Below, in pieces: positions 616-8,697 of a stretch of DNA of 64,000 bases. The notes under the pieces are model-generated. The model did not search any database and was not told where the DNA came from. It was given only the letters and a program-made list of their open reading frames with translations. Made by a program: the position numbers and the translations under genes. The stretch covers positions 1-64,000 of the forward strand of contig NZ_AQXX01000111.1 in the NCBI RefSeq assembly GCF_000376785.1. The letters run 5' to 3'. The stretch's first letter is position 1; each line of letters begins with the position of its first letter. Source of the DNA: Hahella ganghwensis DSM 17046. GTDB taxonomy: Bacteria; Pseudomonadota; Gammaproteobacteria; Pseudomonadales; Oleiphilaceae.

Positions 616-2430
616 TCAGGGGGCCGCCTGAACAGGTTTTTCCGGTTGTTGATGATGCTGGCATTCACTTGATCGTTTGGATTCGCACTGATTGAAATCC
701 ATAACACAGTTTCTGCCGCTTTCCTTGGCGGTATACAAGGCAAAATCGGCGGCGACAAACAGGTCATTGGCACTATTGAAATTATCATTTTCCAGAGTTG
801 CGTAACCCAGGCTGACTGTCAGATTCAGGCTGCCATGCGTGTTTCTTTCCACCCTGCGGCGAATCCTTTCAGCCAGGACTGATACTTCATGTTGGGAGGT
901 TTGCGGGAGTATCAACACAAATTCTTCGCCACCATACCGACAGGGGATATTAGGCTTGCGAACCGTGGCGTTAAGTATTCCTGCCACTGTCTTCAGAGCA
1001 CTGTCTCCCTGGGCATGACCGTAGGTATCATTAAAGCGTTTAAAGTGATCAATATCGATCACCACCATGGAGAGGGGTTGTTCGTGCTGTCGTGCGCGGT
1101 CGAACTCGATATTGATCTGATCGTCGAAGTAACGCCGGTTGTAGAGTTGGGTGAGCGCATCTTTGTAGGTTTTGCGCTTGAACTCATTCAGGCGGCTGGC
1201 GACGGCCAGGCTCAGCAACACCATTTCAATCAATGACCCAAGTTGGAAGGCATTCTGAGTAAAAGCGTTGTGGGGAAGTATGCCAAAGGTTTTCAGCATA
1301 TATATCACCACACCAATCAGCAGAGATGAGAAGGCCACCATATAATAACGGGAGGCTCCTGATCCCTTCATTAACGCGATGACGGCCATGGCAAATATAT
1401 GGATGGCGATGACTAGTGTCAGCACCGCCAAAGGAACGATCATGGTGTGATAGCTGACAATTGGGGAAGCCACCATGCAAACCAGACTGAGAATTTGTAA
1501 ATAGTAGGCAATACGATCCAGCCTGGGGGAAGCGACCCTTGAAATCAGTATCGATCGGGTGAATTGGAGCCCGCCCATCAGGGAAAGGGAGAGGAGTATC
1601 AACAGGCTATGATTGGCCATCCAGGTATTATCAGGCCACAGATACTGGAAACTCAGACCATTGTGGACGGCCATATAGAGCCCGTAGCTCACCACATACA
1701 GCAGATAGTGGGCGAAAGTGCGTTCCCTCACCGTCAGGAACATGATGAGGTTGTAGATGGTCAGAACGATGAAGCCACCATAATAAATTCCCAAGGCCAG
1801 ATATTCTCCGGCAATCAGGTTCATCAGATCCAGTGGTGAATGGGCAAATAACCCGATGTTCAAAGAGCCTTGAGTCTGGTATCTAAAATAGTAGGTTTGC
1901 TGGCTGTCTGGAGGGACTTCGACAGGAAACAGGAAAACCCGGTGATCAACCGGGCGCTGATCGAACTCAACACGGTCTCCGGTGGCTATCTGATTCCAGT
2001 TGCCCTCTTTGTCTTGAGACCAGAAATCCAGATAGTCGATAAGGGGGTAGTCCTGCCTCAGGATAATGTCGACGGTCTCTGGATAGGGATTAATGACCTT
2101 CAGCTTGATCCAGAATGCTGAGGTTGTGAAACCGAAGTTAGGTGACTCGTCGCCACTGGCAATGAAGCGCTGATCATTGGCTGGCTCGAGAACATCCTCT
2201 ATCGTCAGCTCTCCCGTTGTGTCTTCCAATAGACTGAGATGGCTGGCCAGTGATATTTCTGTCAGTTCTGAGGTAAGTAAAACAGGGTGAGGTGCTGCCT
2301 GTTGATCCGGATTGGCGGCGACTGCCCCCTGAACGCCTAGGCAAAGGAACACCAGTACTTGAAACAGGGCTTTTAGTATTCCAGATCGGGAGAGACAGGG
2401 GGAAGTCTTGAATGTCACAACATCGATCAT
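616..2430 (-). CDS. Membrane diguanylate cyclase, 7TMR-DISM sensor plus GGDEF
   Basis: A 604-residue protein predicted to make cyclic di-GMP from two GTP. Order: a signal peptide ending near residue 39 (GAVAA), a periplasmic beta-rich 7TMR-DISMED2-type ligand domain to about 185, seven or eight hydrophobic helices from about 200 to 400, and a C-terminal GGDEF domain from about 430. The catalytic signature is GGEEF near residue 501, after DIDHFKRFNDTYGHAQGD, which is the usual metal and GTP site. No EAL domain is present and I see no RxxD inhibitory site before GGEEF. It stands alone downstream of the lipase operon, separated by a hairpin. The PilZ protein at 47152 is a possible c-di-GMP receiver in the same genome. 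The signal sensed is unknown. Confidence 0.93.
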   Translation of the reverse strand: MIDVVTFKTSPCLSRSGILKALFQVLVFLCLGVQGAVAANPDQQAAPHPVLLTSELTEISLASHLSLLEDTTGELTIEDVLEPANDQRFIASGDESPNFGFTTSAFWIKLKVINPYPETVDIILRQDYPLIDYLDFWSQDKEGNWNQIATGDRVEFDQRPVDHRVFLFPVEVPPDSQQTYYFRYQTQGSLNIGLFAHSPLDLMNLIAGEYLALGIYYGGFIVLTIYNLIMFLTVRERTFAHYLLYVVSYGLYMAVHNGLSFQYLWPDNTWMANHSLLILLSLSLMGGLQFTRSILISRVASPRLDRIAYYLQILSLVCMVASPIVSYHTMIVPLAVLTLVIAIHIFAMAVIALMKGSGASRYYMVAFSSLLIGVVIYMLKTFGILPHNAFTQNAFQLGSLIEMVLLSLAVASRLNEFKRKTYKDALTQLYNRRYFDDQINIEFDRARQHEQPLSMVVIDIDHFKRFNDTYGHAQGDSALKTVAGILNATVRKPNIPCRYGGEEFVLILPQTSQHEVSVLAERIRRRVERNTHGSLNLTVSLGYATLENDNFNSANDLFVAADFALYTAKESGRNCVMDFNQCESKRSSECQHHQQPEKPVQAAP

Positions 2431-2534
2431 GTTAGGTGCCGGGCTAATTATTCGGATTCAGGCATGGATGTTCGCTGACAGTTATGGAAATCCTGCTCCA
2501 CCGAGCTGACTCAGCTATTCAAGGCTTATCCTTC

Positions 2535-2550
2535 TAGACCTATTGGTCTA
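2535..2550 (-). terminator. Hairpin after the cytochrome/lipase operon
   Basis: TAGACC-TATT-GGTCTA forms a 6-bp perfect stem with a 4-nt loop, four bases beyond the lipase stop codon at 2554-2556. The pairing sequence recurs in part within the stop region (AGACGGTCT). There is no long U tract, so termination may be weak. Confidence 0.4.
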
Positions 2551-2553
2551 AGT

Positions 2554-4701
2554 TTAGACGGTCTCTTTTACGATGTCAGTCAATAAATCCTCTTTATGTT
2601 CTTCATTCTGGCCATATCCGGATAGATGTGAAAACAGTTCGGCAATTGAATGAGTGTCTGAAGGCGTCAAGGAGGTCAGTATGTCCAGTCCCAGTCTGCG
2701 ATAACTGTCAAACTGCATTTCGTCAAAAAACTGATCAACGGTGGATTGATCCGGGAAGCTGGGATTGGCTCGCCAGTATGAATACACATTCGCGCTGGGG
2801 TAATCACTGATTACTGCCTTGATGTACAAAAGCTGCGCTTTGGTTTTGTCCTGATAAGTGACTTCCCCTAGCGCAAAAGGTTTTTTGTGCCGTCCTTTGT
2901 CGTCCACTTCGGTGATCGGACGTATGTCCAGTTTCACGTCGGCGCCGAAGTCTGCCTGGACACGCTGTATCGTGCGCCCCAAGTCGCTCAGGGTCGTGTC
3001 CGGATCGGCACTGGCATCTGAAATGATGATGTATTGGCAACGACGTCTGATCAGCTCATAAAGGCCCAAATTGTCAAAATGCCCGCCGTCGGAAAGATGA
3101 ATATCAGCTTCGGTTTCTGAAAGTCCAATCCCAAGCATTTCACGAAACATGAACCGGTACCATTCCGGCAGCCAGCGACGTTGTTGGAGTGCTTTGGGAT
3201 TACGAGTCCAGAATCCGAGACGGGCGTTGATCAGCACCATCAGTATGCTGATCGCTCGGGAGTTGGTGACATAAGTATTTGGATCAATTGCTGCACCGGA
3301 AATGGAAAATGCATTGGACAGCGTCATTCTACCCTCAAGGTAATCACTGGTATGCCTGTATCCGGTGGCCGTTGAGCCGCAGTAAAGTGGACTGAGAAAC
3401 AGGGAGGCTCCGTTGCGGGTGCGTAATTTCTCATGTTTTGAACTGGTGGTATTTAACGTTGTGTTCACTATATGGAGAGGACCGCCATTCTCCGGCCTGA
3501 TATCGGTCAATAGAAACTTTGCCGGAATTGGCGTGCTGGTTTCGGGGGAACTCATTTCAGGCACTGATATTTCCGGCATATAGGCGTCCGTCAGTCTGCC
3601 CCGATAGTAGCTATGCAGAGACAGGCCATTAATATTGCAGATTAGCGCCAGTATGATGGACAGGCTGAACCAGGTGAAAAAAGCTTTGCTCTCCATCCAC
3701 TCGGTATTGGCGCAAATATGATAGAGCGCGGTCAGCATCCCATAGCACAGCAGTGATAATCCAAGAACCGCCAGAGTATTTCCGGTATTGGAACCGGCTC
3801 TTTTGCGTGCCAGTCTGATCGAAATAAGACCGCTGATAAGAGGGATCAGATAAGTGCTGTGCTTGGTAATCAGTGCCATTCCCTGATGGTCAAAATAGTG
3901 CAAGACCATCTCCTCGGCGCCGGTGAATACGGGTAGCAGTCCCAGAGCTGTGGCAATCACACCGCTTGCCAGCAGTCTCCCCATCCAGATTCGAACTGTG
4001 TTTTCCGGCACCATACTGCGTAGCTGAGAGGTGGTGGTGAGAGCAAACAGAAACAGACTGAGGACAAAGAGAATCAGTCCAATCTGTCCCGCAATCAGCA
4101 ATAACATAAAGCCATCATGGCCCTCTATGGCGTGAGCGCCAGGCAGGTGAAGCCAGAGAGGCCAGTTCATGGTAATCCAGTCTTCGCTGGCGACGGCCAA
4201 CACACCGAGTATGATCGGCAGTAGCACAAACAGATTCAATAGTGTCCCGGCCAGTATGGCGGCTCCCAGCGTCCAGCCGGAGTAGCCAGTACCGTTGATC
4301 AGATAGCTGCCGTGAGCACGCAGCCAGTCCAGAACATTACCATGGCCATTTTTAAGGGGGGTTGATCCCAGGTCCTTATGTCGACTGACTGGAATCTGGG
4401 ATCGTAGCCAGGTGTAGCAAGATGAGATATATCCGCCTCCGGAGACAGAAGACAGGTAATCCACCTGAGTCAGCAGTTCCCGGCGCGAAAGTGCCTGCAA
4501 AATTCCCAGGTTAAAGGTGGCGGAACGAATACCGCCGCCTGAAAAGCCCAGGCCAACCAGGGGGGCATCAGGTTGATCAACCCCGGCAGCAGCCCGTCTT
4601 TTGGATATCCACTTCAGTTCCTGTTTCTGGACATCTTCAAAATTGGTGGTGTACAGCGGTTCATCATGATCTGTTGCCTGGTCCCTGTTGGCATTGCTCA
4701 T
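2554..4701 (-). CDS. Membrane patatin/cPLA2-like phospholipase
   Basis: A 715-residue serine acylhydrolase of the patatin/cPLA2 superfamily. The oxyanion segment GFSGGGIRS lies near residue 53 and the nucleophile motif SVSGGGY puts Ser at about 87. The partner Asp is in SDGGHFDNLG near 535. Between the two halves sit about 220 residues with six strongly hydrophobic helices (about 145-365), so the catalytic domain is split by a membrane domain. The likely reaction is release of fatty acid from phospholipid; the substrate is not known. The start is taken at 4701 because its ATG overlaps the upstream stop as ATGA and has GGGGA eight bases before it; an in-frame ATG at 4725 would add eight residues. 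It is the last gene of an operon with two di-haem cytochromes. Confidence 0.85.
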   Translation of the reverse strand: MSNANRDQATDHDEPLYTTNFEDVQKQELKWISKRRAAAGVDQPDAPLVGLGFSGGGIRSATFNLGILQALSRRELLTQVDYLSSVSGGGYISSCYTWLRSQIPVSRHKDLGSTPLKNGHGNVLDWLRAHGSYLINGTGYSGWTLGAAILAGTLLNLFVLLPIILGVLAVASEDWITMNWPLWLHLPGAHAIEGHDGFMLLLIAGQIGLILFVLSLFLFALTTTSQLRSMVPENTVRIWMGRLLASGVIATALGLLPVFTGAEEMVLHYFDHQGMALITKHSTYLIPLISGLISIRLARKRAGSNTGNTLAVLGLSLLCYGMLTALYHICANTEWMESKAFFTWFSLSIILALICNINGLSLHSYYRGRLTDAYMPEISVPEMSSPETSTPIPAKFLLTDIRPENGGPLHIVNTTLNTTSSKHEKLRTRNGASLFLSPLYCGSTATGYRHTSDYLEGRMTLSNAFSISGAAIDPNTYVTNSRAISILMVLINARLGFWTRNPKALQQRRWLPEWYRFMFREMLGIGLSETEADIHLSDGGHFDNLGLYELIRRRCQYIIISDASADPDTTLSDLGRTIQRVQADFGADVKLDIRPITEVDDKGRHKKPFALGEVTYQDKTKAQLLYIKAVISDYPSANVYSYWRANPSFPDQSTVDQFFDEMQFDSYRRLGLDILTSLTPSDTHSIAELFSHLSGYGQNEEHKEDLLTDIVKETV

Positions 4702-7013
4702 AGTGTTTTCCCCAGTAGTTGGCACTCCGGTGGCTGATAATCTGCGGGTGTCGCGGGTGTGTCCTGGTGAACTTTCAGATATTCCAGGATCGCCATTCTT
4801 TCATCGTGGGTCAGAACCGGTCCGATAACGCCTTGGGGCAAAGGGTGTTCCTTCGGAGATTGCTTGTGCTGAGCCCAGATATCTGGATCTGCCGCAAAGG
4901 CATGCCCGGTATTGAGGTTCCCTTCGATACTGGTATCCATCCAGAAGCCTTCCTTACTGACTCCCTCGGTCTCCCGGGTAATTAACGTATAGCCCAGATT
5001 GACCGGATCATAGTCGCGTTGTCCCAGGAGAAACATCGAGCTTCGGGTTTCGGGCGGTGACAGTAATTGGTAAATAGAGGGGACGGATCCGTTATGCAGA
5101 AACGGTGGTGTGGACCACCCTCCTTCCAGAGGGCGTGGTTTATAGCCCAGAACCTGCTGTGGCAGATCCAGCGTTCCGAACCCCTCCAGGCACTGCTGTT
5201 CGTCAAAATCGACGTTGAAGTCTGCATAAAACCGGTTTTTGATCATAAGACCGACTATATTCAGCGCTTCCCCTTCAGTCAGTTGTTTCACGTTGAGAGC
5301 GTCCATCTGAATTTCTGCATACTCCTGCCCATGCTCGATGTTCCAAAGCAGTGCGATCGTCTGGCAGGTTAAATTGCAGCGATAGGAATCTGATGGAGCG
5401 GTTCGCGCATCTGGAATATTCGGTAAAGGAGAAACTAACTGCGATAGCTCGCTTTTGATTGAGGTAAAGAGTGCTGTTGGCAATTCCACGACTGGAGATT
5501 GTTCAGGATACTGATCCAGCAGGTTTGCCAGATCGCCGGTATTCAGCCCCTGGGCCTGCCGAATGTCGATCACTTCTGTCAGGCGATAACGCACCTCTCG
5601 GATTAACTGGCGATAAAGCAAGGGACGCAAAGTATTACCAATATCTTCATTGGTGACACCGGTACGTGAGAGGTCATAGCGACGTTCAAGGAATCCCTTG
5701 GCCGTAGATTCATCCGTACCAATATGTGAAACGGGGATCACTTCGATTTTCCACTCCACCTCTGGACCGGGCTTCAATGGTGCAAGTGATTTTTGTTGTG
5801 CAGCGTTGGCCGGGTGAGGGCCGTGACAGCCCCGGCAGTTCTTCATGAACAGTTGTTCGCCTTGTGTGGCCAGAGACTGGTCAACTTTTCCAAAAAGATC
5901 TTCAGGCCATTTGGGAGCCTGCAAGGTCTGCAGGGTATGTTCAATTTTCTGTAAATCCGCAATCCTGACAGAGCTGCGGAAGCGTTCCTCTGGAGGTAAT
6001 GGACCTCCGGTGTCATTTAACAGTGGAATTCTGGCCCCTACTCCCAGTGCTTCACCGATGTTACGTGCCAAAGGCTGTGCCACTGAACCGTTGTACTGAA
6101 CCCAGTCGAACTTCCAGATATTCCAGACATAGGGGTAGCTAACCGGTGCGGCTCCAACCTGATAGTTGGATGACACCAAGTGGTCGCCAAAGACAGTATT
6201 GCCGATACGTCCCAGAGCATCAGTCCGCCCGTAACCCTCTACCACCGGATACAGGTGTTTCAACGGGTTATTCTGGGGACTGGTGACAAACTGTTTGATG
6301 GAGGTCCATAACTGGCTGCGCAGATTGGATTTACCGTCCGGATAGCGGCCACCCAACACCCCTTTGGCAAATTCATCAAACTTGAACGGGTTGACCGCCG
6401 TGTAAACCAGCGAGGCAATCAGCATCGGGGCAAAAGCACCTCGGGTGGTATCGCTGATGGCATGCATGGCCTGGCCGCCGTCTATGCGTATTGCATAGGT
6501 CTTACCGTCTTTGGTGTAACTCAACTGACCGTTATGGCAGGCCGCACAGGTCACATCCAGGACGTTGTCCCCGGTATTGGGATCATAGTGTTTGGTAAAG
6601 CCGACAGGCAATTGGTCCGGATTGCTTTGGGTCGGAGCACTGTCAACCAGGAAACGGTATCGCCGCATATGGTCCGGGTCTGCAAAACGCAGATCGGAAA
6701 AGGGTAGTCTCAGATTGATGAATCAGGCGTAGCGAATTGCCCCTTCTGATGCACCTTGAGGCATTGATGTACCCTGTGGGGTGTAGTAATAGGTCTGGCG
6801 GGATTCGGATTCCCTGGTTTCGCCCCAGCCCTGGTCCAGATAAACCAGTTCGTCATAATTTTCTTGTGGGGGAATAGTGGAAATCGGCCATAACACATAC
6901 CAGGCAAAAGTGATGCAGGCAGCCAGGAGCAGGACCAGTGTCAGAATGAGCAGCCACTTCAGTCCTTTTCCGATCCAGGACCAGAGTTGGCCTCCAATTC
7001 CTCGGGAGTTCAT
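4698..7013 (-). pseudogene. Long di-haem cytochrome c peroxidase-like protein (RoxA/MauG class), interrupted by in-frame TGA
   Basis: One continuous frame of 771 residues is broken only by TGA at 6725-6723 (codon 97). Before it: a membrane anchor (residues about 17-42), then YLDQGWGE and YYYTPQGTS. After it: FINLRLPFSD, haem motifs CAACH (about 156) and CRGCH (about 393), and the C-terminal PPFLHNGSVPSIYQLL block typical of CCP/MauG relatives. The neighbouring paralogue has YDWF where this gene has YA-stop-F, so TGA replaces Trp. The downstream part could start again at the ATG at 6668, but that protein would lack an export signal and could not receive haem. Options are a true nonsense mutation, low-level readthrough, or a sequencing error. 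Family roles include peroxide reduction and oxygenation of hydrocarbons such as polyisoprene; the function here is unknown. Confidence 0.8.
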
Positions 7014-7038
7014 AGATAACCTCGGTTTGATATTGTTA

Positions 7039-8697
7039 TTAAATACTCTTCAGATACTCGATCAGGGCATAGCGCTGGGGTTCGGTCAGATCGGTACCGT
7101 AAATGTGTCCATGGTTGTGATTACCTGCCAGCGTGGTGTCAAACAGGCTGCTGTTTTCGCTGGGTGAGGTTTTGAATCCAACCTTGTTGATGTCCAGCTC
7201 CCGGTTTCCGACGTGGAAGCTCGTCGGGCGTTGTGCCGGCGGTAGTAACAGATCGTACAAAGTGGGAACGGAGCCATTGTGAAGGTAAGGCGCAGTGGCC
7301 CAGATGCCACTGAGTGGCCGGGCTTTGTAGTAATCCGGCTTCGGATTGGCGTTGGCACTGAACACCTTGTGATAATCCTTGATGGAGTCAACGGCAGAAT
7401 CAATCGGATGGCGAAGCGAGGCGCCTATCGCGGTGTTGATGACCAGATCGATCGTGCTGGCATTGGTACCAAAGGTAGGACCGACAAAGATAAGTTGCTT
7501 ACGTCCTTCAAAGGCCCCCGTTTTGGCTGTCGCATTGATAAAGTTCTCTGCCATTCTAGGGTCCGTACCAATTTCAGTCAGCGGGACCAGAGTCACCTTG
7601 AGCTGTTGATCCTTCGCATCGCGCTGGCTGAGTCGATGGCAAGACTGGCAGTTTTCCTGGTATAACTTTTCCCCCTGGGAAACTTTACTGTCATCAAGCT
7701 TGCCTAATATCCCTGTTGGCCATTCAGGTGGTTTAAGTTCGTAGAACTTTTCCTGCAAAGTTCCTAATGCGTGGAAATCCACAGAGCTTGGGTAACCGGC
7801 GATGCCGGAGTGGTTTTTAACGTCGGCACTGCCAAATACGGCTAACGCCGTTGTCACGTTTTGTATGAGTGGCCCAGGAGCGGTGTTTGGAGCGGAACCG
7901 TTCCATTGCACCAGGTCCAGATGAGGCGCGTTCCATAAAAACGGGTAGCTTACCGGGGCGTCAGCGGGGCGTGCATTCTCAGGAATACCGAGTAATTGTA
8001 CCGCCACGGTATTGAATATCTGGCCAAACGCGTCCAGTCTGCCATGTCCATAGGGGGTATCTGAGTGGTTCATTTTCTGGCGTTTTTTCAGAAAGCTGAG
8101 TCTCTCTTGAACACTTTTCAGCGTCTTCTCTTGCGCTTTGCCATCTGAAGGGCCGCCCATTACCTTAGCCGTAAAGCTCTTCAGCTTTTCAGGTTGTTTA
8201 ACGACAGCTTCCAACGCATTAATAACATTGCTTTCAAAGGTGGGGAAGTCAATCATCGCGGCACCGCCGTCAATAATAACCTCTTGGTTTTGGTAAGAGA
8301 AACTGCTGGTGTGACATGCCGTGCAGGTTAACCCAACCCAGGCTGTCCCATGTTCATCAATTGCTTTACTGAAGCCTACAGGAAGGGCATCGGGATTCTG
8401 AGGTGTTGACTTCGACGGGATAAATCCAAGCCCGGTCATGAACGCATCATTTCTTATCAGGGCAGAGCTTTCGGCCTGCTCAAGGTGAAGAAACCAGTCA
8501 TAGGGAATCATTTTCGAGCCGAATCCCAGATAATGCATAGTGTCGCGGGTTTGTTGGCTCCACCCCTGCTCCAGGGTGATCATGGACGTATCAGGTGGAG
8601 AAGGTATTGATCCTTGAGTATCCTCGCAACCAGTTGTCATTCCAAACAATAAGCCGCCAATAGCGACCGTTAAGCACCTTTTATACACTGCCAACAT
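7039..8697 (-). CDS. Di-haem cytochrome c (CCP/MauG/RoxA-like), probable lipoprotein
   Basis: A 552-residue exported protein with two c-type haem sites, CTACH at 125-129 and CQSCH at 350-354. The N-terminus has a hydrophobic stretch followed by GMTTGC, so Cys24 is a plausible though weak lipobox. The C-terminal block APYLHNGSVPTLYDLLLPP is characteristic of the di-haem peroxidase superfamily. The two haem motifs are about 225 residues apart, as in long RoxA-like members rather than short CcpA. It is the first gene of a three-gene minus-strand operon: cytochrome, 25 bp gap, second cytochrome, ATGA overlap, lipase. It keeps Trp68 at the site where the second cytochrome has a stop codon. Expected location is the periplasm or outer membrane. 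The substrate is not deducible. Confidence 0.87.
   Translation of the reverse strand: MLAVYKRCLTVAIGGLLFGMTTGCEDTQGSIPSPPDTSMITLEQGWSQQTRDTMHYLGFGSKMIPYDWFLHLEQAESSALIRNDAFMTGLGFIPSKSTPQNPDALPVGFSKAIDEHGTAWVGLTCTACHTSSFSYQNQEVIIDGGAAMIDFPTFESNVINALEAVVKQPEKLKSFTAKVMGGPSDGKAQEKTLKSVQERLSFLKKRQKMNHSDTPYGHGRLDAFGQIFNTVAVQLLGIPENARPADAPVSYPFLWNAPHLDLVQWNGSAPNTAPGPLIQNVTTALAVFGSADVKNHSGIAGYPSSVDFHALGTLQEKFYELKPPEWPTGILGKLDDSKVSQGEKLYQENCQSCHRLSQRDAKDQQLKVTLVPLTEIGTDPRMAENFINATAKTGAFEGRKQLIFVGPTFGTNASTIDLVINTAIGASLRHPIDSAVDSIKDYHKVFSANANPKPDYYKARPLSGIWATAPYLHNGSVPTLYDLLLPPAQRPTSFHVGNRELDINKVGFKTSPSENSSLFDTTLAGNHNHGHIYGTDLTEPQRYALIEYLKSI

Follow-up and report, generated by a model that had tools for sequence, protein, structure and literature searches.

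Several described enzymes related to the protein discussed here are oxygenases, namely RoxA, which acts on rubber, and PA2077 and PA2078 of P. aeruginosa, which act on fatty acids (PMC4496055). In-frame stops in bacterial genes under purifying selection are likewise a known phenomenon, and they are mostly short-lived (PMC7918605). Of the three stops, TGA is the one that E. coli reads through most readily, mostly by inserting Trp, and a T directly after the stop favours termination (PMC11126739). Here we report an in-frame TGA in a di-haem cytochrome gene of the marine bacterium Hahella ganghwensis DSM 17046. The gene lies in a window of 64,000 nucleotides, the whole stretch of DNA analysed, which is part of contig C111 of a draft assembly of 6.56 Mb in 144 contigs. 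The TGA probably reflects a genuine nonsense mutation of very recent date (TGG to TGA) at the invariant Trp97.

The cytochrome gene and its cluster

The reading frame from 7013 to 4698 on the reverse strand comprises 771 codons and is terminated by TGA (4700-4698). Our retranslation agrees with an earlier note on this DNA in finding it continuous save for a single TGA at codon 97 (6725-6723, reverse strand), where the local translation is GAIRYA-stop-FINLRLPF. Codons 1-96 (6726-7013) encode an N-terminal part with a hydrophobic membrane anchor, which would be the product if the stop is obeyed. The undamaged remainder, codons 98-771 (4701-6722), contains the FLHNGSVP motif and both CxxCH haem sites (CAACH and CRGCH), whose intactness had also been claimed; as the earlier note had further stated, this downstream part by itself lacks an export signal.

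The part after the stop scores 424 bits against NF040606 (NCBIfam di-heme-cytochrome C peroxidase; cut-off 150), and the intact di-haem paralogue (7039-8697, reverse strand) reaches 576 bits. The haem-site columns C156/C159/H160 and C393/C396/H397 are invariant. The RoxA, RoxB and RoxC models give 37-60 bits over a short stretch only, at cut-offs of 900-1000, which leaves the protein outside these families. RoxA (PDB 4b2n) is nevertheless the best sequence match and the sole significant structural match in the PDB, with a low TM-score of 0.35-0.41. A model of the sister protein from Hahella sp. CCB-MM4 (pLDDT 83.7) has an N-terminal helix at residues 6-41 and places W97 close to the beginning of a short helix spanning residues 95-100. 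The protein is thus a membrane-anchored di-haem cytochrome of the NF040606 group and a distant relative of RoxA. It shares two CxxCH sites and the FLHNGSVP motif with RoxA and NF040606 but differs from them in its N-terminal membrane anchor and in sharing a cluster with another di-haem protein and with a patatin.

The patatin-like phospholipase gene (2554-4701, reverse strand), which matches Pfam Patatin just below the cut-off, starts with ATG at 4701, and an in-frame GTG lies at 4725. The stop of the cytochrome gene and this start share an ATGA overlap (4698-4701, reverse strand) that is conserved in the sister, thereby suggesting translational coupling of the two genes. The conserved downstream neighbour (616-2430, reverse strand) encodes a GGDEF protein, named from its sequence. 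The gene order di-haem, di-haem, patatin, GGDEF (616-8697) recurs in several gammaproteobacteria, being kept in Hahella sp. CCB-MM4 and in several Marinobacterium, and the pairing of a di-haem gene with a patatin is more widely spread than the four-gene order. The first di-haem gene of the Lysobacter and Dokdonella relatives is inverted and located beyond the patatin. In four other genomes of the genus (L004-L007) the GGDEF gene directly follows the di-haem gene, with no patatin match between them. We found no description of the di-haem/patatin cluster or of its function in the papers searched.

Codon 97, constraint on the frame and other interruptions

The closest homologue, found in Hahella sp. 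CCB-MM4 (82% identity), is an intact gene with TGG at codon 97, so that one TGG to TGA change suffices, as had been proposed. Among the seven genomes of the genus comparison, the sister alone matches at the DNA level; four further genomes harbor homologues with 57-58% identity, and one member (G003) has none. Gene loss is therefore tolerated, and the cytochrome gene is dispensable within the genus. Further homologues are present in Marinobacter, Marinobacterium, Steroidobacter, Lysobacter, Dokdonella and others, with more distant ones in Acidobacteria. In the alignment, the stop falls on a Trp in all 43 further homologues, and the next residue is always Phe. The comparison of this codon with relatives, which the earlier note had suggested for sister strains, finds the stop in none of them, as expected for a nonsense allele (pseudogene). 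The equivalent Trp of the paralogue lies in PYDWFLHLEQ, which does align with the stop, with the reported spacing of 34 and 33 residues to the NPDxLPVGF block. The codon preceding the stop also differs from the sister (GCC versus GAT, Ala for Asp), and Ala is tolerated at this position in three of the 43 relatives.

Derived residues relative to outgroups are equally frequent in the cytochromes of the window and the sister (34 and 33; in a second alignment 34 and 32, p=0.90), and the paralogue (36/36), the patatin (33/34) and the GGDEF gene (19/28, p=0.24) give comparable counts. The window departs from 201 columns that are invariant across 35 nearer homologues only at W97 (the stop) and by A634S, and the sister departs from the same columns by D378N only. 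Between the two, synonymous sites have come close to saturation. With one non-stop departure, a Poisson bound limits the unconstrained share of the branch to at most about 1.6-3.5%, for an assumed branch dS of 0.3-0.65. Judged by its sequence, the cytochrome gene shows no decay outside codon 97. The combination that the earlier note had named as contradicting it, a stop fixed in relatives and decay of the downstream frame, was accordingly not found. This lack of decay implies that the stop is very recent, or an error, or not inactivating.

We surveyed interrupted genes by comparing the ORFs from one 393 kb stretch in the sister genome with 1.24 Mb of the 6.56 Mb host genome, made up of the window and further stretches. 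In the resulting 171 ORF pairs, which include some shadow ORFs, no clear internal nonsense codon occurs other than the cytochrome stop, and there is one frameshift, located at a G5 run in another gene. By inspection, the remaining interrupted matches are explained by shadow ORFs on the antisense strand or by N-termini that were extended too far. When the 1.24 Mb were scanned by coding score, 30 stop-flanked coding pairs emerged (18 TAA, 9 TGA, 3 TAG); most of these are adjacent genes of an operon that share a frame, the second starting just past the stop. By Pfam, one pair consists of two distinct cobalamin genes, DBI_PRT and CobS, and in the other pairs checked nothing pointed to a single domain split in two. 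No further internal TGA, and no sign of TGA being read as Trp, was seen in the 1.24 Mb. The frameshifted gene (L155, about 3754; G000:C144, about 43754) has a receptor-like N-terminus, and its counterpart in the sister is an intact ORF of 776 aa; a recent indel, phase variation or an assembly error may each account for it.

Readings of the in-frame TGA

The likelihoods attached to the readings are our judgements and not computed values. The earlier note had left a recent mutation, readthrough as Trp and an error side by side. The absence of the stop in relatives and of decay in the frame agrees with the first of these, and readthrough gained no positive support. Two points count against a recent nonsense mutation: the absent decay is equally expected under an error or under readthrough, and the frameshift at the G5 run together with the 144-contig draft could mean that the consensus contains a few errors.

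A wrong consensus base, with G as the true base, TGG as the true codon and an intact gene, is a possible explanation that we nevertheless consider doubtful. It would account for a gene in which everything else is intact and under normal constraint, and both the draft state of the assembly and the possible indel at the G5 run are in its favour. However, the sequence context of the stop, GCCTGATTC, contains no homopolymer, and errors are not frequent, given that the survey of 171 ORF pairs yielded one clear nonsense codon and one frameshift.

It is unlikely that readthrough is maintained, in the sense that Trp is routinely inserted at the TGA at a useful level and that the cytochrome is supplied at a reduced or condition-dependent dose. 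Purifying selection across the whole frame speaks for it, and the absence of the stop from every relative against it. The decoding machinery of the host also speaks against it. RF2 exceeds its cut-off and retains its own programmed frameshift site at a TGA; its GGQ motif is embedded in RASGAGGQ, where Ala stands instead of the weak Thr246 found in K-12. ARAGORN identified 56 distinct tRNAs in the tRNA-bearing stretches, among them a single tRNA-Trp with the anticodon CCA and none with a stop-reading (suppressor) anticodon, including UCA. The tRNA-Trp has a normal 5-bp anticodon stem and keeps G24; the classic UGA-suppressor change, the Hirsh mutation G24A, is absent, as is the tRNA-Trp variant with a 4-bp anticodon stem (PMC13092985). 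The RNA that follows the stop shows no unusual structure (fold z=-1.2) and has no Rfam match. The literature speaks for it in two respects: in bacteria, in-frame stops occur commonly in genes whose dN/dS is below 1 (PMC7918605), and Trp is the main residue inserted at leaky TGA in E. coli (PMC11126739). As in the latter system, the TGA occupies a Trp position, and misincorporation of Trp would restore the native residue; in contrast to it, the base directly 3' of the stop is the T that favours termination, and there is no sign of elevated readthrough. The stronger proposal that the TGA serves as a maintained, tunable dose control via the near-cognate tRNA-Trp, keeping the gene under selection, is very unlikely.

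A split gene, in which the downstream ORF of 656 codons (ATG at 6668) has gained a function of its own, is highly improbable: this ORF is open and conserved, but it has no export signal, whereas haem c is attached in the periplasm, and no relative shows such a split. Recoding of the TGA has a negligible chance of being correct, because a TGA at a Trp codon, although the usual signature of code 4, stands here in a frame that itself terminates in TGA, as does that of the sister, and because the ancestral residue is Trp and not Cys. General reassignment of UGA to Trp is refuted by the CCA-only tRNA-Trp with its 5-bp stem and G24, the presence of RF2 and the lack of any other internal TGA in the 1.24 Mb, and selenocysteine is rejected, since neither SelB (best match EF-Tu by sequence) nor tRNA-Sec has a match over the cut-off in the draft genome.

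Consequences of a probable recent nonsense mutation

Under a recent nonsense mutation, the explanation that we prefer, translation would end after 96 residues and leave a membrane-anchor stub. The remaining 674 codons would not be exported, because an internal restart, for example at ATG 6668, would lack the anchor, and no haem would be attached in the periplasm. A low percentage of ribosomes may decode the TGA with the near-cognate tRNA-Trp and yield traces of wild-type protein, and since the following T favours termination, full-length protein is expected at most in traces. The downstream patatin would perhaps be translated less, via the ATGA overlap. We infer a correct base, a null or near-null allele and a polar effect on the patatin. 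The case resembles the in-frame stops described for bacterial genes (PMC7918605) in comprising a single stop in a conserved gene with an undecayed downstream part, restricted to one lineage and thus short-lived, and nothing about it is different in kind.

If the base is right, the case is useful mainly as a caution for annotation: the 656-aa ORF that a gene finder would predict from 6668 would falsely appear as a cytochrome without a leader. The stop at codon 97 lends no support to altered decoding in the host and most likely reflects an ordinary event rather than a novel use of the genetic code. Provided that the base is correct, the cytochrome gene has been caught just after its inactivation within a conserved four-gene cluster.
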